64,000 nt of DNA from Fibrobacter sp. UWEL (GTDB taxonomy: Bacteria; Fibrobacterota; Fibrobacteria; Fibrobacterales; Fibrobacteraceae). Every line of letters begins with the position of its first letter. The stretch's first letter is position 1. The stretch spans positions 248,001 through 312,000 of the forward strand of contig NZ_FRBE01000002.1 in NCBI RefSeq assembly GCF_900142535.1, read 5' to 3'. Position numbers and translations under genes: made by a program. This document shows, one piece after another, positions 10,982 through 32,669 of the stretch. The notes under the pieces were generated by a model, which was not told the origin of the DNA, searched no databases, and was given only the letters and a program-made list of their open reading frames with translations.

Positions 10982-11971
10982 ATGGCAAAAGTGAAAATTC
11001 GAGGCGTAAGCTATTTTGGCGTACGCAACCCCAAGCACGTTCTTTCCGACATGGCGAAAATTGAGGAAAAAGGTTTTAACGCCGTATTGCACACCTGGAG
11101 TGAAGAAGACCAGCAATACTACTACGGCACCATGAAGGACATCGTGGACGGTTCCGCCGCTCTTGGCTTAAAGGTGTACGTCAATCCCTGGGGCGTTGGA
11201 CGCGTATTCGGCGGAGAGGCCTACTCGGAACTTACCGCCCGTGATCATGACATGTGCCAGATTGGCGTGGACGGAAACCCCAAGGTGGCCGCCTGCCCCA
11301 ACCATCCTCGCTTTCGCGAATACATGCACAAGTGGATTGAGACCGTCTGCAACACCGCAGTTGACACCATCTTCTGGGACGAGCCCCACTTCTACTTCGA
11401 GAAGGGCGGTTTGGAAAAATGGAGCTGTCGCTGCGAAACCTGCAAGAAGAAATTCCAGGAACGTTTCAACAACGAGATGCCTTCCCTGCTGACCGACGAC
11501 GTGAAGGAATTCCGCGAGGACAGTCTCATCGACTTCCTGAAGGAAATGACGGAAAACGTCCACGCCCGTGGCAAACGCAACTGCGTCTGCATGCTTCCCC
11601 CTTGGTTCCCCGCAGGACTGGACGACTGGGAAAAGATTGCCCGTCTGGAAAGTGTGGATGAAATTGCCAGCGACCCCTACTGGGAACGTGGCGCAACAGA
11701 AGAATGGGTCCGCGAAAAATATGCAGAAACCGCAGTGAAGTTGACGGAAGCGGCCGCCAGATACGGTAAGGCAGTCCAGATGTGGATCAAGGCCTACCAG
11801 ATTGAAGCAGGCCGAGAGAAGGATCTGACCGTCGCTACCGAAGAAAGCATCAAGGCGGGCATCGACAACATCTTCGCCTGGAGTTACAAAGGTACGGAAA
11901 CCTTGACCTGGCTGAAGTCCGACGATCCCATCACCACCCAGATGGCGTTTGAATCCGCCCTCGGATTATAG
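10982..11971 (+). CDS. TIM-barrel glycoside-hydrolase-like protein
   Basis: A 329-residue protein without signal peptide that reads like a complete (beta/alpha)8 barrel: GFNAVLHTWSEED, LGLKVYVNPWGVGRVF, DTIFWDEPHFYF, VDEIASDPYW and GIDNIFAWSYKG are regularly spaced strand ends. The Asp-Glu of WDEP could be a catalytic pair, as in hypothetical glycosidase families. A Cys cluster, CRCETC, follows directly and could bind metal. I do not recognise a numbered GH family. It overlaps the convergent M32 carboxypeptidase gene by 6 bases at its 3' end. The substrate is unknown. Confidence 0.6.
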   Translation: MAKVKIRGVSYFGVRNPKHVLSDMAKIEEKGFNAVLHTWSEEDQQYYYGTMKDIVDGSAALGLKVYVNPWGVGRVFGGEAYSELTARDHDMCQIGVDGNPKVAACPNHPRFREYMHKWIETVCNTAVDTIFWDEPHFYFEKGGLEKWSCRCETCKKKFQERFNNEMPSLLTDDVKEFREDSLIDFLKEMTENVHARGKRNCVCMLPPWFPAGLDDWEKIARLESVDEIASDPYWERGATEEWVREKYAETAVKLTEAAARYGKAVQMWIKAYQIEAGREKDLTVATEESIKAGIDNIFAWSYKGTETLTWLKSDDPITTQMAFESALGL

Positions 11972-17114: not shown

Positions 17115-18884
17115 TTACTTCACGTTTCTTTCGAAGTATACTCCGCGAGACGCTTTCTGATTTACAGTACGTCCCAGCAAGTTCACCTGCTTAGTGCGTC
17201 CATTCATCTGCACGTCGCGAACGACGGGTTTGCGGCCAATCCCATCCGGGCCTTCAACGGAACTGGAGCTATTCACCACAGGTTCCTTAGGTTCCGCGCC
17301 AATGCGATAAACGTCCTTGATGTCAAAGCCAACCACGTCAATATTGGGGCCACCATCAGAGGTGAGTGCGGTAAACTTCAAGTCAAAATCGCAAGCATCC
17401 AGCCAAACGTCATCCACATAGACCGTATCCCAGCTATCCCAGGAAGCGCTAGGCGGAAACTCCACATCGTAAGTTTTGGCATCCACCTGAACAGTCATCT
17501 TGCTTGTGGTAGTCTTGCCGTTACAATAGCGGATAAACATTCTAGCATTGGAAGCAGACTGATAAGAGGTCATCTTGTAAGTAGCATAAGAACCGACCTT
17601 GTTATCAAAGTTATAGAAGCCCTTTCCCGTAAAGCCTACGTGATTCGCTTCCGTCCAGCCAACGTCCACCTCGTTGGGGTAAGACAAATCGCTGAGACTA
17701 GGCCAATCCTTCGTGCCATCCAGAATATCAAACATCACCAGTTCGCTACTGCTAGAAGAAGATACTGCACCTTGGCTTGCACTGGATCCAGGCACCGGCG
17801 TATTTTCGTCACCATGATTGGTTGTAACGCAATTTGCGCCGCCTTCGAAGATTGCTGTATAGGTGATATCGCGGTAAGGCATTTTCACCTTGTAGTAGTT
17901 GGAGTCCGCAGTCACCTTCTTGCAATCATCGTCAGCCCAGTACTGGAATTTCTTTCCGAAACTTCCCGGAGAAACGTGCAAATTCAAGGCTGCTCCACCA
18001 GGCAAATTCTGGTTATGAGTAATCAAGCCGCTTCCAGAAATATTAGCCTTTACCGTCAACTTATAAGTAGGAGCAATAGCGCCCACCAACGTAGTTAACG
18101 CCGCCTTTTCAGAAGCATTTACCGTAGAGCTATTCAAGTTTTCCTGAAGGCCAGCAGTAATCAGCTGGGCATGAACAACAGAGCCCGATTCCTGGAAATG
18201 AGTGGTACCGTCATTGGTCACACCATTAGGATAGTTGGGATATTCCCCCGCCAGGAACATCTTGTAGACGTAGCGGGAAATATAGGCGGAGCTCAACTGA
18301 GTGTACAGATTATAAGTCTTGGTGGTAAGATCAATAAAGGGAACGCCATTCTTTGCGGCAACATCCTTGATCTTATCCTTCACAGGATATTCCTTATTCT
18401 TGTGAGCAGCATCCGTAAGCTCGTTGTCGAATACGTTTCGAGGATATGTGTTCAACATCAACGGGCTCATCAGCACAATGTGCGCACCCTTGCTCTTGGC
18501 GCCATCCACATATTTCTGGAACCAGTAAGCACTGGAGTCAATGGGTACGTAACGATCAGCCTTGGAATAGTCGCGGTCGTTTGTTCCCATCTGTACGAAG
18601 ATATAATCACCCGGCTGAGTCGCCTTCAAGACAGCATCCAAACGACCATCGTTAATAAAGGACTTGGAACTGCGACCACCAATAGCATAGTTAATCACCT
18701 TCACTCGAGACTGGTCAAAGAAGGGAGCTAAGACCTGACCCCAACCTGTTTGGGGGTATGCATTATCCTTGTAATCGCAAACAGTGGAGTCGCCAATCAC
18801 ATGGATGGTAAAGCTTGTAGTGTCACTTACCGCAACACTTGTAAAGAGTGCGGCAGCAACAAAATACTTCAAGAAAGTTTTCAC
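17115..18884 (-). CDS. Rhamnogalacturonan acetylesterase (CE12-like), modular
   Basis: A 589-residue secreted SGNH hydrolase that should remove acetyl groups from rhamnogalacturonan. A signal peptide (about 20 residues) is followed by the catalytic domain: GDST (Ser nucleophile, about residue 32), GGRSS, MGTNDRD, and DGTTH with the Asp/His pair near residue 228. Then come an InlB-like beta module (about 270-345), a Ser-rich linker, a CBM6/35-like module (about 395-530, ending SDGGPNIDVVGF) and a C-terminal module (NLLGRTVNQKASRGVYF) that resembles type IX sorting domains but is shorter. It is the last gene of the PL11-CE12-CE12 operon, 12 bases after the other acetylesterase. Confidence 0.88.
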   Translation of the reverse strand: MKTFLKYFVAAALFTSVAVSDTTSFTIHVIGDSTVCDYKDNAYPQTGWGQVLAPFFDQSRVKVINYAIGGRSSKSFINDGRLDAVLKATQPGDYIFVQMGTNDRDYSKADRYVPIDSSAYWFQKYVDGAKSKGAHIVLMSPLMLNTYPRNVFDNELTDAAHKNKEYPVKDKIKDVAAKNGVPFIDLTTKTYNLYTQLSSAYISRYVYKMFLAGEYPNYPNGVTNDGTTHFQESGSVVHAQLITAGLQENLNSSTVNASEKAALTTLVGAIAPTYKLTVKANISGSGLITHNQNLPGGAALNLHVSPGSFGKKFQYWADDDCKKVTADSNYYKVKMPYRDITYTAIFEGGANCVTTNHGDENTPVPGSSASQGAVSSSSSSELVMFDILDGTKDWPSLSDLSYPNEVDVGWTEANHVGFTGKGFYNFDNKVGSYATYKMTSYQSASNARMFIRYCNGKTTTSKMTVQVDAKTYDVEFPPSASWDSWDTVYVDDVWLDACDFDLKFTALTSDGGPNIDVVGFDIKDVYRIGAEPKEPVVNSSSSVEGPDGIGRKPVVRDVQMNGRTKQVNLLGRTVNQKASRGVYFERNVK

Positions 18885-18896
18885 GGATCCCCCCCC

Positions 18897-20774
18897 CTAC
18901 TTTCTCACCATGGTCTGGCGAATCATCTGGAGACCCTTACGGATAACTACATGGTAGAGACCATTGGACTTAACCATCTGATTCAATTCCTGATTGGAAA
19001 GGCCACTGCCAATCATCATCTGACGACGAGCAATCAACTGGCCCTGCATATTGAAGATGCTGACATCAGCATTTTCCATTCCAGAAAGGTTGATATTCTT
19101 GGTCAAAGCATCTGTTCCGCTTGTATCCTTAGCAGTAGTGTCCTTAACTGTAGTGTCTGCAGGAACGACCTTGTTGGTATCCGGACGGGTAGCGCCCTTA
19201 TACACAACACCCTTCATCTCAAAACCGAACATATCGATATTGGGGGCTCCATCAGAAGTCATGGAAATAATCTGAAGAGTTCCTTCACCCTTTGGAGTCA
19301 TAATCTCAGTATAAACGGTATCCCAAGTATCCCAGCCATTAGGAGGACAGGACACATAATAATCATGGTCCAAATACACGTTGATCAATCGATCTGTCTT
19401 ACCACCATTAGCATAGACAATAGCAAGAGTTGTTGTTGCCGCTTCGGGGAAATCTAGATCGTAGCTAGCAAAAGACTGGTTGTTATTAGCAAGATTAACA
19501 AAGCCTGTTCCCGTAAAGCCCAAATGATTTGCCTCAATAAAGCCTTCATTCATCGTTACGGAATCTTCTGCCTGGAACAAGCTATTAAACTCAATAGGGC
19601 CAAGCACCTTTTCATCTTCGGCAGGCTGACTTGTATAGCCTTCGGGCTGGAAAGGCAAGCCATTCAATTTCCTAGGAACATCAACGCTGAACTGTGTTAC
19701 AGCGCCGCCATTTCCCGTATATTTCTGGGCGCTACCACCTGCATAGACTGCAGTATACTGGGTAGACTTATTCCCCATCTTGAAGGTATAAATGTAAGGG
19801 GATTTTACTTCGGACCTTGCATTTCCAGAAACCTTGTTAGCGTTACCATCATACCAGCCCACAAAAGTGTAGCCAGCCTTGGGCGTAGTCTTCAAGGTTA
19901 CCATCATGCCTTCCGGATAGTAACCGCTAGCAGTTGCTGCAGTTGCAGCACCTTCCGGGCTAACCTTCACATCCACCTGATACATGGGCTTCAAAGCTTT
20001 GGACAGTTCCTTTACCTTGGCATCGCTATGGAATCGAAGCTGTTCAGTCACAATTCGTCCAAAGGCGTTAGCACCCATCTGCTGCAAATGCTGATTATCC
20101 GTCTGCACACCACTCGTCGAATATTCACCTTCGTCAATGAACATATTCAAGTAGTGATTTGAATAGTACTGACCAAGGCTCAGCAAGTAATTTCTAGACA
20201 GAGTATCTAAATCAATAAACGGAACCTTCAAAGAACCAGCCAATTCGCGCATATAAATCGGATAGGCATGATAACCTTCGTAAACAGAGTCTACGCTGGT
20301 AAAATTAGAGCGACGGATGGGAGAAATCAAAATGGGATAAGCACCCTTCTGCTGAGTTTCCTTGACCATGGCAGTCACCTTGGTCTTGAAATTTTCTTCA
20401 CCAGTCTTATAACCATTATCGTTGGCGCCGATCATGATCATCACATAGTCGCCAGTCTGCACCATGTCTCTAATAGCCTTGTCAAAGACATACTTTCCGT
20501 TACGGTCCGTACCGCGAACAGACCAGAAGCCGTCATAGTAACTTACTGACGTTGTACCACCACGACCAGCATTGAAAACCCTGGCTAAACCAGAATCAAA
20601 GAAGTAGCCAAAATCCTGACCCATCCCCTGCTTTGGATAATAACCAGAAGCCCAGTCCTGCATGGTGGAATCGCCTACCAGGTAAATTGTAACAACAGCA
20701 TTTGCTGCGGTAGCGAAAACCATGGAAGCGACTACAACGCCCTGCCAAATTTTGCTAAAAAATCCTTTTCTCAT
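18897..20774 (-). CDS. Rhamnogalacturonan acetylesterase (CE12-like), second copy
   Basis: A 625-residue paralogue of the downstream esterase. Signal peptide (cut near ANA, residue 26), SGNH domain with GDSTMQDW, GRGGTTS and IGANDNGYKTG, and a variant C-terminal block (DNQHLQQMGAN) that carries the Asp and His. An InlB-like module follows (VKVSPEGAATAATASGYYPEG), then a CBM6/35-like module ending SDGAPNIDMFGF, a Thr/Asp linker and a full C-terminal sorting-like domain (ADVSIFNMQGQLIARR ... GLYHVVIRKG). Having two divergent CE12 enzymes in one operon suggests different acetyl positions or substrates. It lies 28 bases after the PL11 gene. Confidence 0.86.
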   Translation of the reverse strand: MRKGFFSKIWQGVVVASMVFATAANAVVTIYLVGDSTMQDWASGYYPKQGMGQDFGYFFDSGLARVFNAGRGGTTSVSYYDGFWSVRGTDRNGKYVFDKAIRDMVQTGDYVMIMIGANDNGYKTGEENFKTKVTAMVKETQQKGAYPILISPIRRSNFTSVDSVYEGYHAYPIYMRELAGSLKVPFIDLDTLSRNYLLSLGQYYSNHYLNMFIDEGEYSTSGVQTDNQHLQQMGANAFGRIVTEQLRFHSDAKVKELSKALKPMYQVDVKVSPEGAATAATASGYYPEGMMVTLKTTPKAGYTFVGWYDGNANKVSGNARSEVKSPYIYTFKMGNKSTQYTAVYAGGSAQKYTGNGGAVTQFSVDVPRKLNGLPFQPEGYTSQPAEDEKVLGPIEFNSLFQAEDSVTMNEGFIEANHLGFTGTGFVNLANNNQSFASYDLDFPEAATTTLAIVYANGGKTDRLINVYLDHDYYVSCPPNGWDTWDTVYTEIMTPKGEGTLQIISMTSDGAPNIDMFGFEMKGVVYKGATRPDTNKVVPADTTVKDTTAKDTSGTDALTKNINLSGMENADVSIFNMQGQLIARRQMMIGSGLSNQELNQMVKSNGLYHVVIRKGLQMIRQTMVRK

Positions 20775-20802
20775 ATACCCAAACTCTTTTTAAAAATCCC
20801 AA

Positions 20803-23454
20803 TTACTTATTAAGAAAAGTTCCCTTAGAAACCATCACTCCATCAACATCAACCTTCACAAAGTACTTACCCTGAGGCAGCATTTCGCGATCGATGACCA
20901 CCATGTTCAAGCCCTCGTTCACATGGGTGTATACGCTTCCCACCACATGGCCGCGCATATCGTACACAACAACCTGTGCGCTGCCGGAACGATTGGAGCG
21001 GAGCACGCCTGTATTCGGATTATATGCATTTACTCCGGGAACGCCTGCAATGGAAATTCCATCAGGAATGGTATCCTTACCCAGTTCAGGAAGTTTCTGG
21101 TTATTATAGAGTTCAATGCCGTCCATACCAAAAGTAAAGGTATCCACATTGGGGCCACCATCAGAAGATGCAGAAACCAATTTTAGAGTATTCTTACCGG
21201 CCTTAAGAGCAACATTTACAGTCACATCCTTGTAAGTGGTCCAGCCGGTAGCAGCGAATTCCACCGTACCTGCAGACTTGTCATTTATGTACAGAGTCAT
21301 GTTGCGGTTTGCAGTTCCGCCGTTGGCGAAGCGAATCGTCAGAGTAGTCTTCACATCCTGGGGAGAGAAGATTTCCCACACACCGTAGCTACCCATGCTA
21401 TTGTCAAAATTGTAGAAACCATCCTGTTCATAGCCAGCATTGTTCGTTTCGCAGGCAAAGCCTTTACCTTCAACAGGCTTGCAGATTTCCATAGAAGACT
21501 TACCATCCTTAATGACGGGATAATCTTCAGTAGGATCCGGAACGGAAACAATAGGATCCCCCACAATCTGGATTTCGGGAGCGGCCAATTTCTTCACAGC
21601 ATCCGGCAGGTAGTAACCGAGGTGCGGCGGCTGGTTGTAAGCAGTGTTCTGCCATGCGATTGCAGTACGGTAAACAGCATCATGCATCAAGGTATAGACG
21701 CGATAGGGAGAAGTTACCGGAGTAGACACAATGTAAAGTACGGTCGGATCGTTTGCATTACGAACCACCAGTTCTTCGCGCCAGTCGCCGAAGAGATCTG
21801 CAACAAGGCTCGGAGTATTCTTGGTGCCGTTACAACCGGTTGCGCCAAGTGCGGTAGGACCATCGAAATAAACCTCAGACTTACCCGCAGAAGAATTGAA
21901 CTTGGTCACATAGGCGCCATCCAAAAGTTCATCCTGAAGGTCCCCGTCAAAGTATATACGGAAGTTGGTGGAAACCGCCGGAGAGCCCATGGACTTGCCC
22001 TTGATATCGTGCATGCCGCCACTCTTGCTGGACCAAACTTCAAAACCACGATGCGTAGAATCAATGTCAGCAGCCATACCACGGCCATTGTCTACACCAG
22101 GATTGGGCTGCGGCGTACCCCAAATAATTTTTCCATCGGGGCCACGAACTTCATCGGTATACTTGGCATCGGTATGCTCATGCACATCGAAAAATTCCAG
22201 GCCCGGAAGATCCGGATCCAAGTCAGACAAATGACCTGCATCCCCATGGCCCAACTGAGTAGAATAACGAAGAGTACCGTCATGGTTTAACGCAGCACCG
22301 CCAAACACGATTTCATCATAGCCATCGCCATCAATATCACCAGTTACAATGTTATGGTTGCCCTGAGCATAAAGACCTGCACCCGGATCTTCGGACTTAT
22401 GGTACCAACGCTGCTTCAGAGTCTTGCCATCAAAATCATAGGCAACAACGTAAGAGGAGGAATAGTAGCCACGAATAAAGATTGCACTTGGATGGATACC
22501 ATCCAAGTAGGCAGTTGCAGCAATATAGCGTTCGCAGCGGTTACCATAGTTATCGCCCCAATAGCCCTTCTTATCAACACCCTTTACATGCTGATTGATA
22601 TTACGGCTGGGAACAAAGTCAATGGAAGTAATCGCAGCACCATCAGCACCACGGAAAACGGTCAGGTATTCGGGACCGTCAAGAACTGTTCCACCAGAAT
22701 TGCGGTAATCCTTGGACTTGTCACCAATAGCCTTGCCCGTACCATCAATAGTACCGTCGGCGGTCTTCACGATCATTTCGGCCTTGCCGTCACCATCGTA
22801 GTCATAAACCTGGAACTGGGTATAGTGAGCACCGGCACGGATATTCTTGCCCAAGTCAATGCGCCACATACGGGTGCCATCCAGCTTGTAGGCGTCAATA
22901 AATACGGTACCCGTATAACCTGACTGGGAGTTGTCGTGAGCGTTGGACGGATCCCACTTCAGGATCAGTTCCAGTTCGCCATCCCCATCGAGATCGGCGG
23001 CGCTCATATCGTTAGGCGTATAAGTGCAGGTAGAGCCGTCCGGCATGGTCTGCTTCGCAGGAACTTCAAGCTTGATAGTCTTGTACGGGAAGGAATTTCC
23101 GGTATTTGCAACAGTCTTGTCCAATACAACGGAAAGTCCGGCCTTTGCGCCTTCCTTGCCACCAATTACAGCGGAAACCTGATATTTGGAAGAGGCCTTG
23201 CCATCCTTATCCAAATAGTTGGTACCCTCGGTTCCCTTGATAGAGGCAATTTTATCGCCATCGCGGTAAAGGTTGAATTCCGTAGCCGGGTCGTCGGTAC
23301 CCAGCAAACGCCAGCTCACCAGCATTCCCTTCCCTACGTTAGAGGCAACTAGACCTCGAGTCAGATTTTCCATCTGCTTCGGAGCAGCAAAAGCCAAGCC
23401 ATTCATGCTCAAAAGAGCAGACCCAATCAGTAATGCCTTAGAAATTTTACGCAT
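20803..23454 (-). CDS. Rhamnogalacturonan lyase (PL11-like) with CBM and C-terminal sorting module
   Basis: An 883-residue secreted lyase of the RhgW/YesW type, which cleaves rhamnogalacturonan-I backbones by beta-elimination. A signal peptide ends near FAA (about residue 24). A fibronectin-like N-domain follows, then the beta-propeller with Ca-binding repeats (DLDGDGELE, DYDGDGKAE, DIDGDGYDE) at about residues 155-385. After the propeller come a CBM6/35-like module (about 650-790, ending SSDGGPNVDTFTFG) and a C-terminal module (VVVYDMRGHVVGSVY ... QGKYFVKVDVDG) like type IX sorting domains. I start at the ATG before RKISKALLIG because the signal peptide begins there; ATGs 6 and 30 bases upstream are in frame. 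Confidence 0.9.
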   Translation of the reverse strand: MRKISKALLIGSALLSMNGLAFAAPKQMENLTRGLVASNVGKGMLVSWRLLGTDDPATEFNLYRDGDKIASIKGTEGTNYLDKDGKASSKYQVSAVIGGKEGAKAGLSVVLDKTVANTGNSFPYKTIKLEVPAKQTMPDGSTCTYTPNDMSAADLDGDGELELILKWDPSNAHDNSQSGYTGTVFIDAYKLDGTRMWRIDLGKNIRAGAHYTQFQVYDYDGDGKAEMIVKTADGTIDGTGKAIGDKSKDYRNSGGTVLDGPEYLTVFRGADGAAITSIDFVPSRNINQHVKGVDKKGYWGDNYGNRCERYIAATAYLDGIHPSAIFIRGYYSSSYVVAYDFDGKTLKQRWYHKSEDPGAGLYAQGNHNIVTGDIDGDGYDEIVFGGAALNHDGTLRYSTQLGHGDAGHLSDLDPDLPGLEFFDVHEHTDAKYTDEVRGPDGKIIWGTPQPNPGVDNGRGMAADIDSTHRGFEVWSSKSGGMHDIKGKSMGSPAVSTNFRIYFDGDLQDELLDGAYVTKFNSSAGKSEVYFDGPTALGATGCNGTKNTPSLVADLFGDWREELVVRNANDPTVLYIVSTPVTSPYRVYTLMHDAVYRTAIAWQNTAYNQPPHLGYYLPDAVKKLAAPEIQIVGDPIVSVPDPTEDYPVIKDGKSSMEICKPVEGKGFACETNNAGYEQDGFYNFDNSMGSYGVWEIFSPQDVKTTLTIRFANGGTANRNMTLYINDKSAGTVEFAATGWTTYKDVTVNVALKAGKNTLKLVSASSDGGPNVDTFTFGMDGIELYNNQKLPELGKDTIPDGISIAGVPGVNAYNPNTGVLRSNRSGSAQVVVYDMRGHVVGSVYTHVNEGLNMVVIDREMLPQGKYFVKVDVDGVMVSKGTFLNK

Positions 23455-23472
23455 ACACATCCCACACGTTAT

Positions 23473-23532
23473 AACTGTTGACAATTAAAAGTCTAAACTG
23501 TAGACAAATATATACTAAAAAAGTCTACATTT
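23473..23532. promoter_or_regulatory. Operator-like cluster in the divergent pectin / sensor-kinase promoter
   Basis: AACTGTTGAC (23473-23482) and AACTGTAGAC (23496-23505) lie 23 bases apart on the plus strand. The second is part of an inverted repeat, GTCTA-N5-TAGAC (23491-23505). A third, one-mismatch copy (AAATGTAGAC) lies on the minus strand at 23523-23532. Because the region feeds both the PL11 operon and the kinase operon, one regulator could control both. Inference; the best candidate is the TIGR02147 protein at 16081-17010. Confidence 0.45.
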
Positions 23533-23685
23533 CACATTGTAAGGGTAAAATATTTTTGATAGATAATCCACAGCACCGCTATAAGCCTATTTTTCTCACA
23601 TTTATTTTACCGATACGTGACAAAAAGTTTACATTTTAATAAAAAGAGCCTAAATCGAAGCGGTTTTCAATCATTCTGGATTTTT

Positions 23686-25566
23686 ATGATACCCGAACTC
23701 GTATCGTCAGTATTTGCCGTATTTCTTCTAGTCCTTCTTATAAGGGTCCTTTACCGCGTATGGCCCAATCGAAAGGATTCCCCCTCCCAAGGGATATACG
23801 CAAACTTTGTACTTGCGGCACTCATTCTGGAAGCAGAAACAATTCCCGACTTATTACTTCTATGCGGGATTTTCCAATTAAATAAGATTGCCGCCTCCAT
23901 TTTCTATACGACAGAATTTACTCTTATCGCCTTGGTCGCATACCAGTGGTTCAAATATTTCGTCACCATCCAAAACGAAAAAAAAGTTTTCACCCGAAAA
24001 TGGAACATCCTTTTTGCGATTCCGACAATTATCGTCTTCATCGCAGCAGCTTCCTCCTACTGGACTAACGCCCTGTTTATAACAGAGTTCACCGATGGCC
24101 AATACTATTACCTGAACGGAACCCTACCTTGGATCCAGTACATCCCCTACATTTACATACTTGCAGGAATGGGGCTCATCTTTAAGCAAGCGGTAAAGGA
24201 CAACCGGGAAAAAACAAGAAAAAATTTATGGTTCATATTCACATTTACATTTCCTTGCGCTATTGCAGTGGCCTTCCAGGCTTTAGCGGGAATTGACTAC
24301 GGTTTTACACAAGCGGGAATTTGTCTTGCAGTGTACCTGTCCTACGTGGAATTATACATCGAAGAGATCAAGGAAGCGAAACGTCTAAAAGATATAGACG
24401 AAATCAACGCCAAACTGAAAGACGCGAATCAGGCCAAGACAAGATTCCTCTTTAACATGAGCCACGACATTCGCACTCCCATGAATGCCATTATCGGCTA
24501 CACAAGCCTTATAAGCAAAAATATGAGTCATCCGGAAAAATGCCTGGACTACATTTCCAAAATTGACAAGTCCAGCCAGTACTTGCTCTCCCTCATCAAC
24601 AATGTTCTGGAAATGGCAAGCATCGAAAGCGGGGCCATCGTGAATGACACTCGCATTTGCAACATCTACGCCATCAAGCAATCTCTGGAATCCATTTTTG
24701 GCGAACAGATGAAACAGAAAGGACTAGAATTCAACGTCAATGTGGACATCCAACATACAAACATCATTATCGACGAAGTCAAAGTCCGAAGCATTTTGCT
24801 GAACCTTATTTCCAACGCCTATAGGTACACCTTACCTGGAGGCACGATCGTCGTCACAGTTCGAGAATTCCACTCCGAAAAACCCGATTGCGGAATGTAC
24901 CAGGTGATTATCTCCGACACAGGCGTTGGTATTTCCAAGGAATTCCGATCACATCTGTTTGACGAGTTCTCCAGAGAGAAAAATTCTTCTGGTAACAAGA
25001 TCGCAGGAGCAGGTCTCGGCATGTCCATCGTCAAGAATTATGTGGAACAGCTGGGCGCAACTATATCCGTAGACAGCGAAGTCGGGGAAGGCACGACCTT
25101 TACCATCACCCATCCCGCAATTCCTCTCGCACAAAGCGATGAACAGGCAGCCCCAGTCGAAACATCCAACGTCATCCCCCGCTTCGAAGGCAAGAAAGTT
25201 CTGCTAGTAGAAGACAACGATCTAAACGCAGAGATTGCCTATGAAATTCTAAAGGGCATGGGCATCCAGGTGGACCGAGCCGAAGATGGCATCCAGTGCA
25301 TCCACAAGATGAGCCAGTCCGAAGAAGGCTATTACGACTTGATCCTCATGGATATCCAGATGCCCAACCTGAATGGGTACGAAGCCACAAGAGCCATCAG
25401 AACCACCATGACAGGAAAGAAAGCCGACATTCCAATTCTTGCTATGACAGCGAATGCCTTCAAGGAAGACAGACTGGAATCTCTAAAGGCTGGCATGAAT
25501 GGGCACTTGGCAAAGCCCATTAACGTAATTGAACTGACTCAGGAACTCTCAAGGATTCTTGGATAA
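23686..25566 (+). CDS. Hybrid histidine kinase with seven-helix membrane sensor
   Basis: A 626-residue membrane kinase. Seven hydrophobic segments fill about residues 3-235, as in 7TM-type sensors. Next come a short coiled linker ([17 protein letters not shown]), HisKA with the phospho-His in [14 protein letters not shown] (about residue 267), HATPase motifs ([30 protein letters not shown]) and a receiver ([12 protein letters not shown], phospho-Asp in LILMDIQMP, Lys in HLAKPIN). The start chosen is the ATG directly before the first helix; a GTG 23 codons upstream is possible. It is the first of three adjacent hybrid kinases and lies divergent from the pectin operon. Confidence 0.88.
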
Positions 25567-25576
25567 CGGTTAGCCT

Positions 25577-28363
25577 ATGAAAAAGATTGTATTTGTATTT
25601 GCGTTATTTTTTCTAGCGATCGTCGCATTTGCACCCGCTCAAGAGAGCACGGGTAAGACCGTCAAGGTGGGTTGGTTCCAGAGCAACACTTTCCAGGAAG
25701 GTATGGATGACGAATCCCCCAAGGGAGGATTCTCCTACGAATACCTAATGAAAGTTGCCGATTACAATGGTTGGCAATACAAGTATGTTTACGGTGAATG
25801 GCCAGACTTATTTGAAAAACTACGCAAAGGGGAAATTGACGTTCTAGCCGGAGTATCCTCCACAGAAGAACGAAAGAAAACAATATCCTTTCCCAGCTAT
25901 ACCATGGGAAACGACCTTTACTATCTCTACCAGCACTCTGATACCCATGTGATGGATATTTTCGACTTGAACACCCTTCAGGGAAAGAAAATTGGATGCG
26001 TCAAGGAAAATCGAATGACCACTTTTTTACTGGAGTGGGCAAAGGAAAATGGTGTTCAATTCGAGATCGTCTATTATGATGGATTTACAAAACGAGACGA
26101 AGAATTCAAGAAAAGAAAAATTGACGGAATCGTCGCAACCGACAATAATATTCTATCCATTTCGGGTTACTCCGCTGTGGTTAAAATCGGTGAAGAACCC
26201 TTCTATCTTGCAGTCACAAAACAACGCAAGGATCTTTTAAAAGACTTGAATCGCTCCCTGGAAATTATTCAGGAAATGAACCCCTATTTCTTGCACGATT
26301 TGCAACATTCCAATCAAGGCGTATCCAACAACAACAACAGGCTTTCCCCAGAGGAAAATAACTGGTTAGCCCACCATCACGTACTGAACGTGGGCTACAT
26401 GAACAATTACACGCCCTTCTGCGGAACAAGCAAGGATAACCAGGCCACCGGTCTTATTACAGACGTTATGGACGCCATTGTTGAGCGGTTAAATCTCAAG
26501 GGAACCCTGTTCGTTCGATACAAGCCCTATGACAACTACAACGACATGGTGCAATCCCTTCATGATGGAACCAACGATGTAGTATTTCCCATTAGCGGAA
26601 GCACATGGGACATTGACCGCGACGGAATTAACGTAACATCACCTGTAGTCACTGTAGGTATGAACCTTGTTTACGAAGGAACCTTCAGCGAAGAAAAATT
26701 GAGAAAAATCGCTGTCAACAGCAATAACAAAAATCAGCAATACTACATCAATGAAACTTACCCTAAGGCAGAGCTCATTTACAAGTCCTCCATTGAAGAA
26801 TGCTTGAAGGCGGTAAAAGAAGGAGAAGCAACAGCCACCATCATCAATGGCCTCCGAATTGATCTGGTCCGCAAAAATAGCGATTATAAGGATTTGACCA
26901 TACTCCAGCTAGGAAAGAGCAGTTCCCGTTTTATGGGTGTCAGGAAGGGCGAAACAGGAATCCTACTACAGCTTAATCGCGGACTGAAGCTCATTGGCCG
27001 TGACTTTGGAATTAATGCTTCCTACAAGTACATGGATGAATTCTACACCTACACCGCAAAGGATTTTATCAAGAAAAACTTCATGACCATCGGCCCTGCA
27101 CTCATCATCCTGATGCTTCTGGTGGGAATCATTCTAGGCTTTGACGCAAGACGGGCAAAGAAGCTGGCAAGGCGAATGGATGCTTTAAACAAGAACCTGG
27201 AAAAGGCCCGCGAGGACGCAGAATCTGCCAGTAAAGCAAAAACAAATTTTTTCTTCAATATGAGCCATGACATCCGTACGCCCATGAATGCCATCATGGG
27301 ATTCACGGAGCTTTTGGACAAATATCAGGAAGACCCTCTTAAGCGCAGCAATTACTTAAAGAAAATCAATGATTCCAGCAATGTTCTCCTCTCCATTATC
27401 AACAACGTTCTGGAAATGGCACGAATCGAAAGAGGTACGGTCAATATTGAAGAATCTGTCTGGAGCGTGGAGCAGTTTAACGACACTCTCTATTCAGTAT
27501 TCCAGGAGATGATGTTAAATAAGAACATCAAGTTCACCCGAACAATCAAGGTCGAACACCATCAGGTTTATTGCGATACCATCAAGGTTCGCGAAGTGTT
27601 CCTGAACATTCTCTCCAATGCCTACAAGTACACTCAGGAAGGCGGCCATGTGGATATGGTCCTTAGGGAAATTCCCTGCAAGAAGATGGGATATGCCACA
27701 TTCGAAACCACCATATCCGACACTGGCATTGGCATCTCGGAAGAATTCCTTCCTTACGTCTTTGACGAGTTCGCACGAGAAAATAATTCCGCCGGAAACC
27801 GCATCGAAGGAACAGGCCTTGGTCTTTCCATCGTAAAGAGCCTTGTGGAACTCATGAACGGAACCATCACCGTTCGGAGCAAGAAAGGCCTTGGCACCAC
27901 ATTTGTCGTGATCCTCACTCATAAGATTGCAAAACAGGAAGAAATCGTCCATCATGCATTCCAGAAACAACCTCCTCTCTCCTTCAGAGACAAGCGGATC
28001 CTACTTGCAGAAGACAACGACTTGAATGCCGAGATTACCAGCGCAATTCTAACCGAAGTCGGATTCATCGTGGATCGTGCCACCGACGGAAACGTCTGTC
28101 TAGACATGCTGAAAAATGCAGACGACAATACCTACGATCTCATCCTGATGGACATCCAGATGCCCAACATGAACGGCTACGAAGCCGCTGCAGCCATTCG
28201 AAATCTAGAGGACAAGAAGAAATCCAGCATTCCTATTTTGGCTCTTACCGCCAATGCCTTCGAAGAAGACAAGCAGGCAGCCCTGGCCGCAGGAATGAAC
28301 GGACACTTATCCAAGCCTATCAACATTCAAGAACTGATGGATACTTTGGAGAAAACTCTATAA
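25577..28363 (+). CDS. Hybrid histidine kinase with two periplasmic solute-binding domains (BvgS-like)
   Basis: A 928-residue kinase. A signal peptide (about 21 residues) is followed by two bacterial extracellular solute-binding (family 3) domains at about residues 30-245 and 265-490: KVGWFQSNTFQEGMDDE, GGFSYEYL and DVLAGVSSTEERKKTISF mark the first, and LNVGYMNNYTPFCG and DVVFPISGSTWD the second. A single membrane helix near 503-522 leads to HisKA ([14 protein letters not shown]), HATPase (ILSNAYKYT, DTGIGIS, GTGLGLSIV) and a receiver ([12 protein letters not shown] ... LILMDIQMP ... HLSKPIN). The design is that of BvgS-type nutrient or metabolite sensors. It starts 10 bases after the previous kinase. 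The ligand is unknown; the pectin neighbours make an oligosaccharide-linked or amino-acid signal worth considering. Confidence 0.9.
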   Translation: MKKIVFVFALFFLAIVAFAPAQESTGKTVKVGWFQSNTFQEGMDDESPKGGFSYEYLMKVADYNGWQYKYVYGEWPDLFEKLRKGEIDVLAGVSSTEERKKTISFPSYTMGNDLYYLYQHSDTHVMDIFDLNTLQGKKIGCVKENRMTTFLLEWAKENGVQFEIVYYDGFTKRDEEFKKRKIDGIVATDNNILSISGYSAVVKIGEEPFYLAVTKQRKDLLKDLNRSLEIIQEMNPYFLHDLQHSNQGVSNNNNRLSPEENNWLAHHHVLNVGYMNNYTPFCGTSKDNQATGLITDVMDAIVERLNLKGTLFVRYKPYDNYNDMVQSLHDGTNDVVFPISGSTWDIDRDGINVTSPVVTVGMNLVYEGTFSEEKLRKIAVNSNNKNQQYYINETYPKAELIYKSSIEECLKAVKEGEATATIINGLRIDLVRKNSDYKDLTILQLGKSSSRFMGVRKGETGILLQLNRGLKLIGRDFGINASYKYMDEFYTYTAKDFIKKNFMTIGPALIILMLLVGIILGFDARRAKKLARRMDALNKNLEKAREDAESASKAKTNFFFNMSHDIRTPMNAIMGFTELLDKYQEDPLKRSNYLKKINDSSNVLLSIINNVLEMARIERGTVNIEESVWSVEQFNDTLYSVFQEMMLNKNIKFTRTIKVEHHQVYCDTIKVREVFLNILSNAYKYTQEGGHVDMVLREIPCKKMGYATFETTISDTGIGISEEFLPYVFDEFARENNSAGNRIEGTGLGLSIVKSLVELMNGTITVRSKKGLGTTFVVILTHKIAKQEEIVHHAFQKQPPLSFRDKRILLAEDNDLNAEITSAILTEVGFIVDRATDGNVCLDMLKNADDNTYDLILMDIQMPNMNGYEAAAAIRNLEDKKKSSIPILALTANAFEEDKQAALAAGMNGHLSKPINIQELMDTLEKTL

Positions 28364-28384
28364 CCTTTTGTTGTGTATATTGCC

Positions 28385-30484
28385 ATGAGTACGAAGCAGA
28401 AATCACATAAAAAGTTCGAGCTTGACCAGCTAAAAACAGGGATGTTCATCCTTGCCATAGGTGTCGTGTTGGAAGCTGTTTTCCTTTTCTCAACCTATAG
28501 AAGTACAGAAAAGCAGCTAAAAACTGAATATAGGGCTCATGCCGAGGAAATTGCCGGCAGTATTACTAGAGAACTCAACAATGCGTACGAAACTACGGAA
28601 CTTCTCAGGGACTTGTATAACGTCTATGACGAACTATTCCTGAACGACTTCAATAAAATCTGTGCAGAACTGACCAAGGACAATCTTGCCATTGGCAGTA
28701 TGTATTTCGCGCCCAATGGAATCATCAAGTATTCCTACCCCAGTACTGTAGATTCCGCAACCTCCAACTTTGAAATGTTAAAGGACTCCATCCAGGGGCC
28801 TAAGGCACTAAAAGCAATCCAGGACCAAAAGCCCACCATTGCAGGACCTCATCACCTGGTGGAAGGAGGCGAAGGATTCATCGTTCGTACTCCTATATTC
28901 AAGAGAGATCGCTTTGAGGCATTCTCCATCATTGTCATTGATAAGGAAACCTTGATTACCCAAATCAAGAATAACCCTAAATTTCACCATTACAAATTCG
29001 CCATCTGGAAAGACGAAGATCCAACAGCAATTCTTGACGCAAATGGCTTTATCTTAACCAGCAATGAAAACGATAAAGTTTCCAGGGACAATTTCGTTTC
29101 CTTCGAAGTATTAAACGACATTTGGCACATTTCCGTTGAGCCCGTCGAAGGACTAAAGGTCTGGGGATCCATGAAGTATTCCCTGATAGCCTCCATCACT
29201 CTTCTTTTCGTTCTCGCAGCCCTATTCTATATACAGTCCATTGCTATGGGGCGTAAACGTCAGTTGCAAATGGAACGTATGTCCAACAAGGCAAAGAGTC
29301 AGTTCCTATTCAGCATGAGCCACGACATTAGAACACCCATGAATGCAATTCTTGGTTTTGCGGACTTGATGAAGAAGAATCTGGATGATAAGGAAAAACT
29401 AAAAGACTATCTAGAAAAGATTAACTCCTCCAGTACATTCCTGCTATCCTTAATCAACAATGTTCTAGAAATGGCCCGAATCGAAAGTGGCAAGGTTACT
29501 CTAGACGAAAACATAATCAACACCCAAAAATTTGAAGACGTTACAGACGCGGTCTTTACAGACTTGGCTCACAGCAAGGGGTTGGAATTCCGTAACGATT
29601 ATCATCTCATCCATGAGTATGTCATTGGCGATGAAATGAAGTTAAGGGAACTTACCCTGAACATTGTCAGCAACGCAATCAAGTATACCCCTGTAGGCGG
29701 TTACGTCAAGCTTAGCCTTATAGAATCAGAAAATAAGACTCCCGGCTACACCACCTTTACCGCGATTTGCGAGGATTCCGGCATCGGGATCAGCAAGGAA
29801 TATCTACCCCATATCTTTGACGAATTCTCCCGAGAAAGGAATTCCACCGACAGCAAGATTTCCGGTACTGGTCTAGGCATGCCCATTGTCAAAAGGCTTC
29901 TCAACCTGATGAACGGAACCATCGACATTGAAAGCGAGGTTGGAAAGGGCACGAAGATAACCATTGTCCTCCCCCTCCGCCTCCCCACGGAAGAACAGAT
30001 GGCCGCAGCAAGACAGGCAGAAACCCAGTCACACGGCAACACCATTCATACGGAAATGTTGAACCGCGCACCAGTCAGCGATAAAATTTTCAATGGGCAT
30101 CGTATCCTTCTCGCCGAGGATAATGACCTCAATGCGGAAATTGCCACAGCCATCCTGGAAGAAATGAGCCTCTCTGTAGAACGAGTTCCCGACGGTATCC
30201 AGTGCATTCAGACCTTAAGCAAACATGCTAACGGATATTTCGACGTGATTCTTATGGACATTCAGATGCCCAATATGAATGGCTATGACGCCACTCGAGC
30301 CATCCGATCCCTGAATATGCCAGAAAAGGCAAACATTCCCATCATCGCCATGACTGCCAACGCCTTTGACGAAGACCGACAGAAAGCATTTGAATCCGGC
30401 ATGAACGACCATGTGGCAAAGCCTATTGACGCCTACAAGCTGGCAAAATCTATAGAAAAAGCACTGAATTTAAGGAAAACCTAA
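28385..30484 (+). CDS. Hybrid histidine kinase with extracytoplasmic Cache/CHASE-like sensor
   Basis: A 699-residue kinase with two membrane helices (about residues 19-37 and 261-281) flanking a periplasmic domain of about 220 residues. That domain contains YFAPNGIIKYSYPS and GFIVRTPIF, a pattern typical of CHASE/Cache sensors. HisKA ([14 protein letters not shown]), HATPase (IVSNAIKYT, EDSGIGIS, GTGLGMPIV) and a receiver ([25 protein letters not shown]) follow. I start at the first ATG rather than at a GTG four codons upstream. It lies 21 bases after the BvgS-like kinase. All three kinases share [11 protein letters not shown] and near-identical receivers, so they probably arose by duplication with sensor swapping. 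Confidence 0.88.
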   Translation: MSTKQKSHKKFELDQLKTGMFILAIGVVLEAVFLFSTYRSTEKQLKTEYRAHAEEIAGSITRELNNAYETTELLRDLYNVYDELFLNDFNKICAELTKDNLAIGSMYFAPNGIIKYSYPSTVDSATSNFEMLKDSIQGPKALKAIQDQKPTIAGPHHLVEGGEGFIVRTPIFKRDRFEAFSIIVIDKETLITQIKNNPKFHHYKFAIWKDEDPTAILDANGFILTSNENDKVSRDNFVSFEVLNDIWHISVEPVEGLKVWGSMKYSLIASITLLFVLAALFYIQSIAMGRKRQLQMERMSNKAKSQFLFSMSHDIRTPMNAILGFADLMKKNLDDKEKLKDYLEKINSSSTFLLSLINNVLEMARIESGKVTLDENIINTQKFEDVTDAVFTDLAHSKGLEFRNDYHLIHEYVIGDEMKLRELTLNIVSNAIKYTPVGGYVKLSLIESENKTPGYTTFTAICEDSGIGISKEYLPHIFDEFSRERNSTDSKISGTGLGMPIVKRLLNLMNGTIDIESEVGKGTKITIVLPLRLPTEEQMAAARQAETQSHGNTIHTEMLNRAPVSDKIFNGHRILLAEDNDLNAEIATAILEEMSLSVERVPDGIQCIQTLSKHANGYFDVILMDIQMPNMNGYDATRAIRSLNMPEKANIPIIAMTANAFDEDRQKAFESGMNDHVAKPIDAYKLAKSIEKALNLRKT

Positions 30485-30585
30485 AAAAAATGGAAGTTTT
30501 TTGTATGTTTTCCTCCATTTTCTCCCACAATAACTTATCTTAATCTCATCATAGATTGTAAAAATACGTAAACGGATCTTTTATA

Positions 30586-32247
30586 ATGCTAAAGAGTGAA
30601 ATTCTTATTGTAGATGACTCTGAAATCAATCGCAGTATGCTGCGCTTGATGTTGCAGGAAGAATACGAAGTTACGGAAGCGGAAAACGGCGCAGAAGCAC
30701 TGGCCTTAATCGAAAAAGGCGATCACATTTTCCGTTTAATTCTGCTGGATCTGGTAATGCCTGTTATGGATGGATTTACCTTCCTTACAGAACTGCAGAA
30801 GCAGAAACAACTGCAAATTCCTGTCATTATTATCTCTGGAGACAGCTCCGAAGAGTCTCTTGACAAGTCCTACGGCCTCGGGGCAGTAGACTTCTTTACC
30901 AAGCCTTTTAACCCCAGCATCGTAAACCATCGAGTACAGAACGTTATTTCCCTGTACTCCCATGGCTATCGGGATGTACTGACCGGCTGCTATACCCGTA
31001 ATGGATTTATCCAGGTCTGCGAGAACTTCATCCAGAAGGTGGAGGATCCCTCCATCTACTCCATCATCTTTTACGACCTGAAGAACTTCAAGGCAATCAA
31101 CTCTATTTTTGGAACAGCAGGCGGAGACTTGGCACTTAAATATACTAGCCAGGGCATTCAGAAAAGCAATCTAGCCCCTCTATTCGTAGCCCGTCTAGAA
31201 GCAGACCACTTCGTATGCCTAGCCGAAACCAATAGAATCGACATCGCCGCCATGATGGAAGAAAACGGGGCCGTAGTTGAATTCAACGGACGTCCCATGC
31301 AGATTCGTTTCCGCATGGGTGTTGCCCATATTGACTCCAAGGCTCCTATCGCAGGCTATATGGACAGGGCAAAGCTAGCCCTGAGCTATATCGAAGATGA
31401 ATATCTGAAGCCTTATGCAATCTTTGACGAAAAGATGTCCGAAAACTACGTCAACGCAGCTGTCGTTGCCACAGACTTTGAAACCAGCCTGGAAAAGAAC
31501 GAGTTTAAGGTATACTACCAGCCTGTGATGGAAGCATCCACCGGTAAGATTGCCTCAGCAGAAGCTTTGATCCGCTGGATCCATCCCGAGCGCGGTTTCG
31601 TACGTCCGGACTTGTTCATTCCTGTTCTGGAAAAGGACGGCTACATTTCCAAGTTGGACCTGTTTGTAGACTTGAAGGTCCATTCCGTCATGAATGACTG
31701 GAAAAATCAAGGCCTCCCAACAGTGCCAGTTTCTGTCAATCTTTCCTGGATGGATTTCTACGACGCCGACATGATTCGCTTTATCCTGGACCGTCTGGAA
31801 ACGAACCAGGCAGCCCCGGGACAGGTCCGTTATGAAATTACGGAATCTTCCTTCGCAGCCCTCAAGGAAAATCGCGACGGAGTCCTTAAGGAAATGCAGA
31901 GTCTTGGCGCATGGCTACTGATGGATGACTTCGGAAGTGGCTACTCTTCTCTTGCAATGCTCATGAACTACAAGTTCAACATCCTGAAAATTGACATGAG
32001 TATTGTACGCAAACTGGAAGAAAAGCCTGAAGTGCCCCATATCGTGGAACTAATCATCAATATGTGTCACCATCTGGGAATGAAGGTTGTAGCCGAAGGC
32101 GTGGAAACCGAAAGCCAGCTCAACTTCCTCAAAAATGCTGGATGTGACTACATTCAGGGTTATTACTTTAGTAAGCCTCTGCCCGAAGCGGATTTCAAGG
32201 AATTCCTCGCAAAGTGCAGGGCCGAAGGAAACATCGTAGAGAACTAG
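30586..32247 (+). CDS. Response regulator: REC - degenerate GGDEF - EAL c-di-GMP phosphodiesterase
   Basis: A 553-residue cytoplasmic protein. The receiver (ILIVDDSEIN, phospho-Asp in LILLDLVMP, Lys in FFTKPF) occupies about residues 5-120. The GGDEF domain (about 135-275) has RLEADHF where active cyclases have GGDEF, so it should not make c-di-GMP. The EAL domain (about 295-540) keeps the catalytic set: AEALIRW, VNLSWMDF, ITESSF, DDFGSGYSS, LKIDMS, VAEGVET and QGYYFSKPL. It should therefore hydrolyse c-di-GMP. It is the only output protein in the cluster and is followed 11 bases later by the Hpt gene. Confidence 0.9.
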   Translation: MLKSEILIVDDSEINRSMLRLMLQEEYEVTEAENGAEALALIEKGDHIFRLILLDLVMPVMDGFTFLTELQKQKQLQIPVIIISGDSSEESLDKSYGLGAVDFFTKPFNPSIVNHRVQNVISLYSHGYRDVLTGCYTRNGFIQVCENFIQKVEDPSIYSIIFYDLKNFKAINSIFGTAGGDLALKYTSQGIQKSNLAPLFVARLEADHFVCLAETNRIDIAAMMEENGAVVEFNGRPMQIRFRMGVAHIDSKAPIAGYMDRAKLALSYIEDEYLKPYAIFDEKMSENYVNAAVVATDFETSLEKNEFKVYYQPVMEASTGKIASAEALIRWIHPERGFVRPDLFIPVLEKDGYISKLDLFVDLKVHSVMNDWKNQGLPTVPVSVNLSWMDFYDADMIRFILDRLETNQAAPGQVRYEITESSFAALKENRDGVLKEMQSLGAWLLMDDFGSGYSSLAMLMNYKFNILKIDMSIVRKLEEKPEVPHIVELIINMCHHLGMKVVAEGVETESQLNFLKNAGCDYIQGYYFSKPLPEADFKEFLAKCRAEGNIVEN

Positions 32248-32258
32248 AAGGAATTTTT

Positions 32259-32612
32259 ATGGATATCAAAGAACTTTATGTTAAGATTGGCGGAAATTAC
32301 GAAGACGTCCTGGGACGCCTGATGAAGGACTCCCTTGTGGAAAAATTCGCCCTCATGTACCTGAAGGACACCTCTTTCGAGACCCTCATGGCTGCAATCA
32401 CCGCAGGAAATATCCCTGACAGTTTCCGTGCGGCACACTCCCTGAAAGGCGTATCTGCCAACCTGGGTTTCGAGGAACTGCGTAAGGCAGCCTCCAACCT
32501 GACCGAACAGCTCCGCCCTCAGACTACCCCGGCAAACGCAGAAATGGTAGAAGCAGTAAAGGCTGCTCACGAAAAAGTTGTTGGCGGCCTCAAGGATTAC
32601 CAACCGGCCTAA
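32259..32612 (+). CDS. Histidine phosphotransfer (Hpt) protein
   Basis: A 117-residue free-standing Hpt domain with the phospho-His in FRAAHSLKGVSANLGF (about residue 53) and otherwise helical composition. It should carry phosphate from the receivers of the three hybrid kinases to the REC-GGDEF-EAL protein just upstream. I start at the ATG preceded by AGAAGGA; a longer in-frame start inside the upstream gene lacks such a site. Having hybrid kinases, an Hpt and a response regulator in one cluster makes a complete phosphorelay. Confidence 0.9.
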   Translation: MDIKELYVKIGGNYEDVLGRLMKDSLVEKFALMYLKDTSFETLMAAITAGNIPDSFRAAHSLKGVSANLGFEELRKAASNLTEQLRPQTTPANAEMVEAVKAAHEKVVGGLKDYQPA

Positions 32613-32640
32613 AAACATCGTTTTTTTGCGTTTTTCATAA

Positions 32641-32669
32641 AAACAGCTCCAAAAGGGCTGTTTTTTTTG
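32641..32669 (+). terminator. Rho-independent terminator of the phosphorelay cluster
   Basis: AACAGC pairs with GCTGTT (extended by CC/GG) and is followed by eight T residues. It lies about 30 bases after the Hpt stop. Confidence 0.88.

Follow-up and report, generated by a model that had tools for sequence, protein, structure and literature searches.

A 64,000-nucleotide stretch (the window) of the 3.53-Mb genome of a gut Fibrobacter contains three adjacent genes for hybrid kinases, followed by a gene for a REC-GGDEF-EAL protein and a gene for a free Hpt protein. The question raised by this locus is whether these genes encode a closed phosphorelay that controls c-di-GMP breakdown, or whether their Hpt also serves kinases that are encoded elsewhere in the genome. 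A preliminary description made from the sequence had considered the set to be self-contained.

The five-gene locus and its products

The five consecutive genes on the forward strand (Table 1) were identified from the ORF list and Pfam, and the gene set and domains proposed in the preliminary description are real. The ATG that was taken there as the start of HK1 is internal, and the gene begins at the GTG. The HK1, HK2 and HK3 genes are closely spaced, as are the EAL and Hpt genes. A gap of 101 nt separates HK3 from the EAL gene, which may therefore have its own promoter. The hairpin downstream of the Hpt gene is presumed to end the transcription unit. Rfam gave no match to a c-di-GMP riboswitch or any other known RNA within the window, and a promoter scan returned fewer sites than shuffled sequences. 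Pfam identified no DNA-binding regulator in the locus, and the NCBIfam matches of the kinases and the phosphodiesterase all lay far below the cut-offs and gave no specific name.

Table 1. Features of the locus and its surroundings, in window positions
Feature	Position	Strand	Basis and remarks
Second GDSL esterase	17115-18884	-	
Recombination tract, ~99% identical to G007	18382-24623		6.2 kb, sharp edges
GDSL esterase with CBM6-like region, downstream of RGL11	18897-20774	-	Pfam
RGL11 rhamnogalacturonan lyase, divergent neighbour of HK1	20803-23484	-	Pfam
HK1 hybrid kinase, 649 aa	23617-25566	+	Pfam, hydropathy; GTG start, alternative ATG 23686
HK2 hybrid kinase, 928 aa	25577-28363	+	Pfam, BvgS/EvgS structure matches
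HK3 hybrid kinase, 703 aa	28373-30484	+	Pfam; CHASE-like sensor
Second tract, 365 bp, 100% identical to G007	29741-30105		HK3 HATPase/linker coding region
REC-GGDEF-EAL output protein, 553 aa	30586-32247	+	Pfam, residue inspection
Free Hpt phosphotransfer protein, 117 aa	32259-32612	+	Pfam; ATG 32259
Intrinsic-terminator-like hairpin and T run, 11 pairs	32639-32665	+	Pattern match only

HK1 has HisKA, HATPase and REC domains in Pfam. Its sensor region exhibits seven hydrophobic segments by hydropathy and a HisKA_7TM (PF16927) match near the threshold (27.8 against 28.6 bits), and is of the 7TM type. The protein ends 8 aa past REC and has no Hpt of its own. HK2 consists of a signal or anchor segment, two Venus-flytrap SBP_bac_3 domains, one TM segment and HisKA-HATPase-REC. 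The second SBP_bac_3 stretch matches the sensor structures of BvgS (4q0c) and EvgS (9ilw). By Pfam and structure match, HK2 therefore has the two periplasmic Venus-flytrap domains of the BvgS/EvgS unorthodox kinases. It ends 7 aa past REC and lacks their fused C-terminal Hpt, so it works like BvgS without being one. HK3 has two TM segments that flank a CHASE-like periplasmic domain, followed by HisKA-HATPase-REC. The CHASE match scores 24.8 against a cut-off of 25, and that of the G007 orthologue is above it at 30.4. Where related clusters have a single kinase, that kinase is an orthologue of the HK3 core. The three sensor types that had been claimed (7TM, double solute-binding and CHASE-like) were thus recovered from Pfam matches near or above threshold, hydropathy and structure matches.

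All three kinases end 7-12 aa past REC and belong to the Hpt-less hybrid kinases. Their transmitter and receiver motifs had been described as near-identical, which is correct for the phospho-site motifs but too strong for the domains. Pairwise identity is 63-66% for HisKA, 46-53% for HATPase and 56-61% for REC, so the three kinases are paralogues and not near-copies.

The receiver of the output protein is intact (DD10/11, D55, S84 and K106 in the translation) and could be phosphorylated, and its DD, S and K were checked across orthologues. If the earlier wording "REC-degenerate GGDEF-EAL" referred to the receiver, it does not hold; the degenerate domain is GGDEF. RLEADHF occupies the motif position in ten orthologues (RFEADHF in two), and the GGDEF/GGEEF motif of an active diguanylate cyclase is absent from the output protein. 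The EAL domain (PF00563, 227 bits) has the complete set of catalytic and metal-ligand residues (EAL, N, E, DDFGSGYSS, K, EGVE, QGY). These residues are conserved in ten orthologues, except for one EGVE position in two of them. The output protein is a probable c-di-GMP phosphodiesterase whose degenerate GGDEF domain would probably do no more than support the structure or sense GTP.

The last gene encodes a stand-alone Hpt (PF01627, 42.5 bits) with HSLKG around H60. Its translation most likely starts at the ATG in Table 1 rather than at the GTG at 32214 of the ORF list. A PDB search with the Hpt gave weak matches only, mostly to CheA and HPt domains, and a contig scan with its sequence returned two Fibrobacter loci and weak matches in Verrucomicrobia.

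Conservation of the cluster and sharing of the Hpt

Relatives of the Hpt were surveyed in 151 Fibrobacterota genomes. Eight close orthologues (66-84% identity), a second group at ~40% and weaker relatives were found. In all nine orthologous loci, counting that of the window, the Hpt gene directly follows a REC-GGDEF-EAL gene. In the second group it directly follows a REC-HD-GYP gene in 17 of 21 loci, which indicates that the free Hpt usually pairs with a c-di-GMP phosphodiesterase. The remaining four loci of the second group have a REC-bearing gene directly upstream. Two of these four loci were opened (L147 and L148, from G065 and G096), and the Hpt gene there lies directly 3' of a hybrid kinase gene with no phosphodiesterase gene nearby.

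The number of kinases beside the EAL-Hpt pair varies. Three adjacent kinases are found in the window and G007, one in G110, G097, G081, G041, G147 and two MAG loci (L070, L071), and none in G011 and G118. The layout had been called unusual, which holds only for the count of three kinases. Most commonly, a single kinase accompanies REC-EAL and Hpt, and comparable clusters that have REC-HD-GYP where these have EAL occur widely across the genus. In the latter (L084-L087, L089, L090), found in many Fibrobacter, REC-HD-GYP and Hpt lie between a pair of hybrid kinases that run in the opposite direction, and one kinase of the pair has an SBP sensor. A third kind of cluster (L091-L095, L134) consists of a two-receiver hybrid kinase, REC-GGDEF-EAL and Hpt. 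The genome of the window also has a second kinase-to-c-di-GMP-phosphodiesterase cluster (L100, G000:C8:55000-74900), in which three Hpt-fused hybrid kinases lie beside a REC-REC-HD-GYP protein.

In G011, the kinase tandem beside RGL11 directly precedes a BrkB gene, and neither an EAL nor an Hpt gene lies between them (the kinases end at 11943 and BrkB starts at 11965 of L116), and the EAL-Hpt pair is on another contig (L082). That tandem (L116, 3293-11943) consists of three hybrid kinases of 1217 aa (SBP, two receivers), 941 aa (SBP) and 691 aa. In G118, RGL11 and one kinase are found in L141 and the EAL-Hpt pair in L083/L142. Since these two genomes hold the kinase block and the phosphodiesterase-Hpt block on different contigs, the blocks are separable and their adjacency alone proves no pairing.

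Eight Hpt matches were detected in the genome of the window, and the cluster Hpt is the sole free-standing one at the Pfam threshold, below which divergent Hpts could be missed. Six Hpt-less hybrid kinases are encoded elsewhere (contigs C3, C7, C15, C16, C34 and C44), of which those on C15 and C44 have 1060 and 931 aa, and one more is truncated where its contig ends. The six end 8-12 residues past REC, share the receiver start EDNxxNxxIA with HK1-3 and group with them in one clade. Another clade, with a receiver start of the VDDVxMNLxV type, takes in nearly all of the Hpt-fused kinases.

The same association was found across the genus in a draw of 67 Fibrobacter genomes. A free Hpt is encoded by 51 of them; all 51 also encode one or more Hpt-less-class kinases, and 48 encode two or more. 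Among the 16 others, 11 have no such kinase, five have one and none has two (Fisher 3e-9 and 9e-13, uncorrected for phylogeny). Two apparent exceptions are an 858-aa kinase with a divergent receiver motif in G015 and a 772-aa kinase with a 123-aa tail on a very long branch in G001.

"Self-contained" therefore describes the contiguity of the parts but probably not the circuit. A closed relay implies no other Hpt-less kinase of this class in the genome, and six are present with no other free Hpt detected, while the kinases and the phosphodiesterase-Hpt pair lie apart in G011 and G118. These remote kinases and the co-occurrence in the genus indirectly favour a shared Hpt over a closed circuit, and the cluster Hpt probably also takes phosphate from the remote kinases of the same clade.

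Recombination tracts and the pectin neighbourhood

The locus had been described as divergent from pectin-degradation genes, and the RGL11 lyase and two GDSL esterases do lie divergently upstream of HK1. RGL11 lies divergently beside kinases in five genomes inspected (window, G007, G110, G011 and G118). The sensor that faces it varies between species, and the pectin genes are absent from most orthologous clusters. The pectin neighbourhood travels with the kinases rather than with the phosphodiesterase.

The window and the sister genome G007 (locus L076) were compared at this locus. The 6.2-kb tract has flanks of roughly 70-85% identity, against a genomic background of 82-84% between the two. 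It covers one GDSL gene in part and the other in full, then RGL11, the intergenic region and, in HK1, the sensor and HisKA. On the right it breaks off within the part of HK1 that encodes HisKA (24433-24636), with 13 bases of the domain left. This tract is most simply a recent transfer. The 365-bp tract in HK3 has flanks of ~75-80% identity and is conversion-like.

Other kinases of the related clusters also differ in their sensors. The HK2 position in G007 is occupied by a different kinase, and the closest counterpart of HK2, found in G011, shares 52% identity in the sensor and 70% in the core. The single kinases of G110, G041, G118 and L070 have a sensor with several TM segments and a cytoplasmic extension, like the second kinase of G007, and a core like that of HK3, with the switch in similarity inside HisKA (residues 400-440). 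Since the tract edge and these switches both lie inside HisKA, it seems that homologous recombination exchanges the sensors. Most simply, such recombination would have happened recently, with the conserved transmitter sequences as crossover sites. The sharp edges inside HisKA show directly how a hybrid kinase may acquire a new sensor and still keep its partner specificity.

The proposed relay, its alternatives and known systems

All domains and residues for an H-D-H-D relay plus an output are present. Domain content and gene linkage are the basis on which the phosphotransfer steps, enzyme activity, ligands and biological outcome are predicted. The cluster anatomy is best read as three kinases that would act through one Hpt on one c-di-GMP phosphodiesterase. 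Each membrane hybrid kinase would autophosphorylate on the HisKA histidine and pass the phosphate to its own REC, from there to H60 of the free Hpt and then to D55 in the receiver of the REC-GGDEF-EAL protein. The phosphorylated receiver would raise or lower c-di-GMP breakdown. The three cluster kinases would be a locally kept, exchangeable set of sensors. We favour, with a probability of about 0.7, a many-inputs-to-one-output phosphorelay onto the phosphodiesterase whose Hpt is very probably shared with remote kinases, and with this sharing the locus would be the point where a larger network delivers its output, and not a closed circuit.

An unlikely alternative is that only HK1-3 use the cluster Hpt, which phosphorylates only the EAL protein, and that the remote kinases have other partners. 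The contiguity of all parts agrees with this, and small closed versions do exist, since G041, G004 and G051 hold Hpt-less-class hybrids only within the Hpt cluster. The six same-clade kinases in the genome of the window, with no other detectable free Hpt, and the kinases that lie away from the Hpt in G011 and G118 argue against it here. It is slightly more doubtful that the locus serves to sense pectin and regulate the divergent rhamnogalacturonan operon, with c-di-GMP control being incidental. The position of RGL11 beside the kinases in five genomes, two of which have the phosphodiesterase-Hpt pair elsewhere, would suit such a role, as would the tract that holds the pectin genes and the HK1 sensor together. 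However, the locus is without a DNA-binding regulator, the pectin genes are missing from the majority of orthologous clusters, and different species have different sensors next to RGL11.

The Hpt could also mainly serve or drain other regulators, with the EAL protein phosphorylated directly by the kinases or never; this is the least probable of the alternatives. The genome holds a REC-GGDEF (contig C11) and a LytTR-like (contig C6) regulator without an adjacent HisKA kinase, and the use of an Hpt as a phosphate sink is known for other systems. However, frames of REC-GGDEF size (~290-310 aa, with REC matches) also seem to be present in genomes without any free Hpt, which makes the EAL protein the best candidate target, and the Hpt adjoins REC-EAL or REC-HD-GYP in 26 of 30 loci.

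A broader form of the shared relay is proposed more tentatively, at somewhat less than even odds. One free Hpt may be a genome-wide funnel for nine or more interchangeable hybrid kinases onto an Hpt-phosphodiesterase node that sets c-di-GMP. New inputs would arrive through recombination in the HisKA-coding region, which can carry a sensor together with neighbouring polysaccharide-degradation genes.

In F. succinogenes S85, the c-di-GMP level on cellulose is ~2.5-fold that on glucose. Two proteins with GGDEF domains also rise on cellulose and were called orphans with unassigned inputs; one of them is annotated as GGDEF/EAL/response regulator (1.78-fold) (PMC6851124). Given these increases, an output in plant-fibre attachment or substrate choice is plausible; pectin use is another plausible outcome. 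The locus illustrates possible inputs of regulators of this type and names a testable hub.

The REC-HD-GYP clusters of Fibrobacter have the same architecture with two hybrid kinases, a homologous Hpt (~40% identity) and homologous kinase cores, and an output of the c-di-GMP phosphodiesterase type. They differ in having HD-GYP for EAL and kinases on the opposite strand around the phosphodiesterase-Hpt pair. In the HptB pathway of Pseudomonas, the output regulator HsbR is presumably not a c-di-GMP phosphodiesterase, unlike the predicted output of the locus. As judged by shared domains only, that pathway is similar in that four hybrid kinases (RetS, PA1611, SagS and ErcS') act through one free Hpt (HptB) on one output regulator (PMC6335343). 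The Hno network of Shewanella (HnoK and HnoS acting on HnoB, HnoC and HnoD) likewise connects multiple kinases with distinct inputs to a c-di-GMP-degrading EAL response regulator (PMC6335343). Hno has an NO/H-NOX input and branches to a transcription factor and a degenerate HD-GYP protein, whereas the locus has 7TM, double SBP and CHASE-like sensors and one output gene. In Pseudomonas, RocR is a REC-EAL regulator and RocS1 is a BvgS-like kinase; RocS1-type kinases have a fused Hpt, in contrast to the separate and probably shared Hpt of the locus. Roc comprises two kinases (RocS1/RocS2) and three regulators (RocA1, RocR and RocA2) in a branched arrangement (PMC12051241), and ArrS/ArrR of Aeromonas is described as a two-component system for c-di-GMP breakdown (PMC11841396). 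Many-to-one kinase relays through a free Hpt (HptB) or onto REC-EAL phosphodiesterases (Hno), as well as branched ones (Roc), are already known, and the interest of this locus lies in its recombination pattern and in the probable genome-wide sharing of its Hpt.
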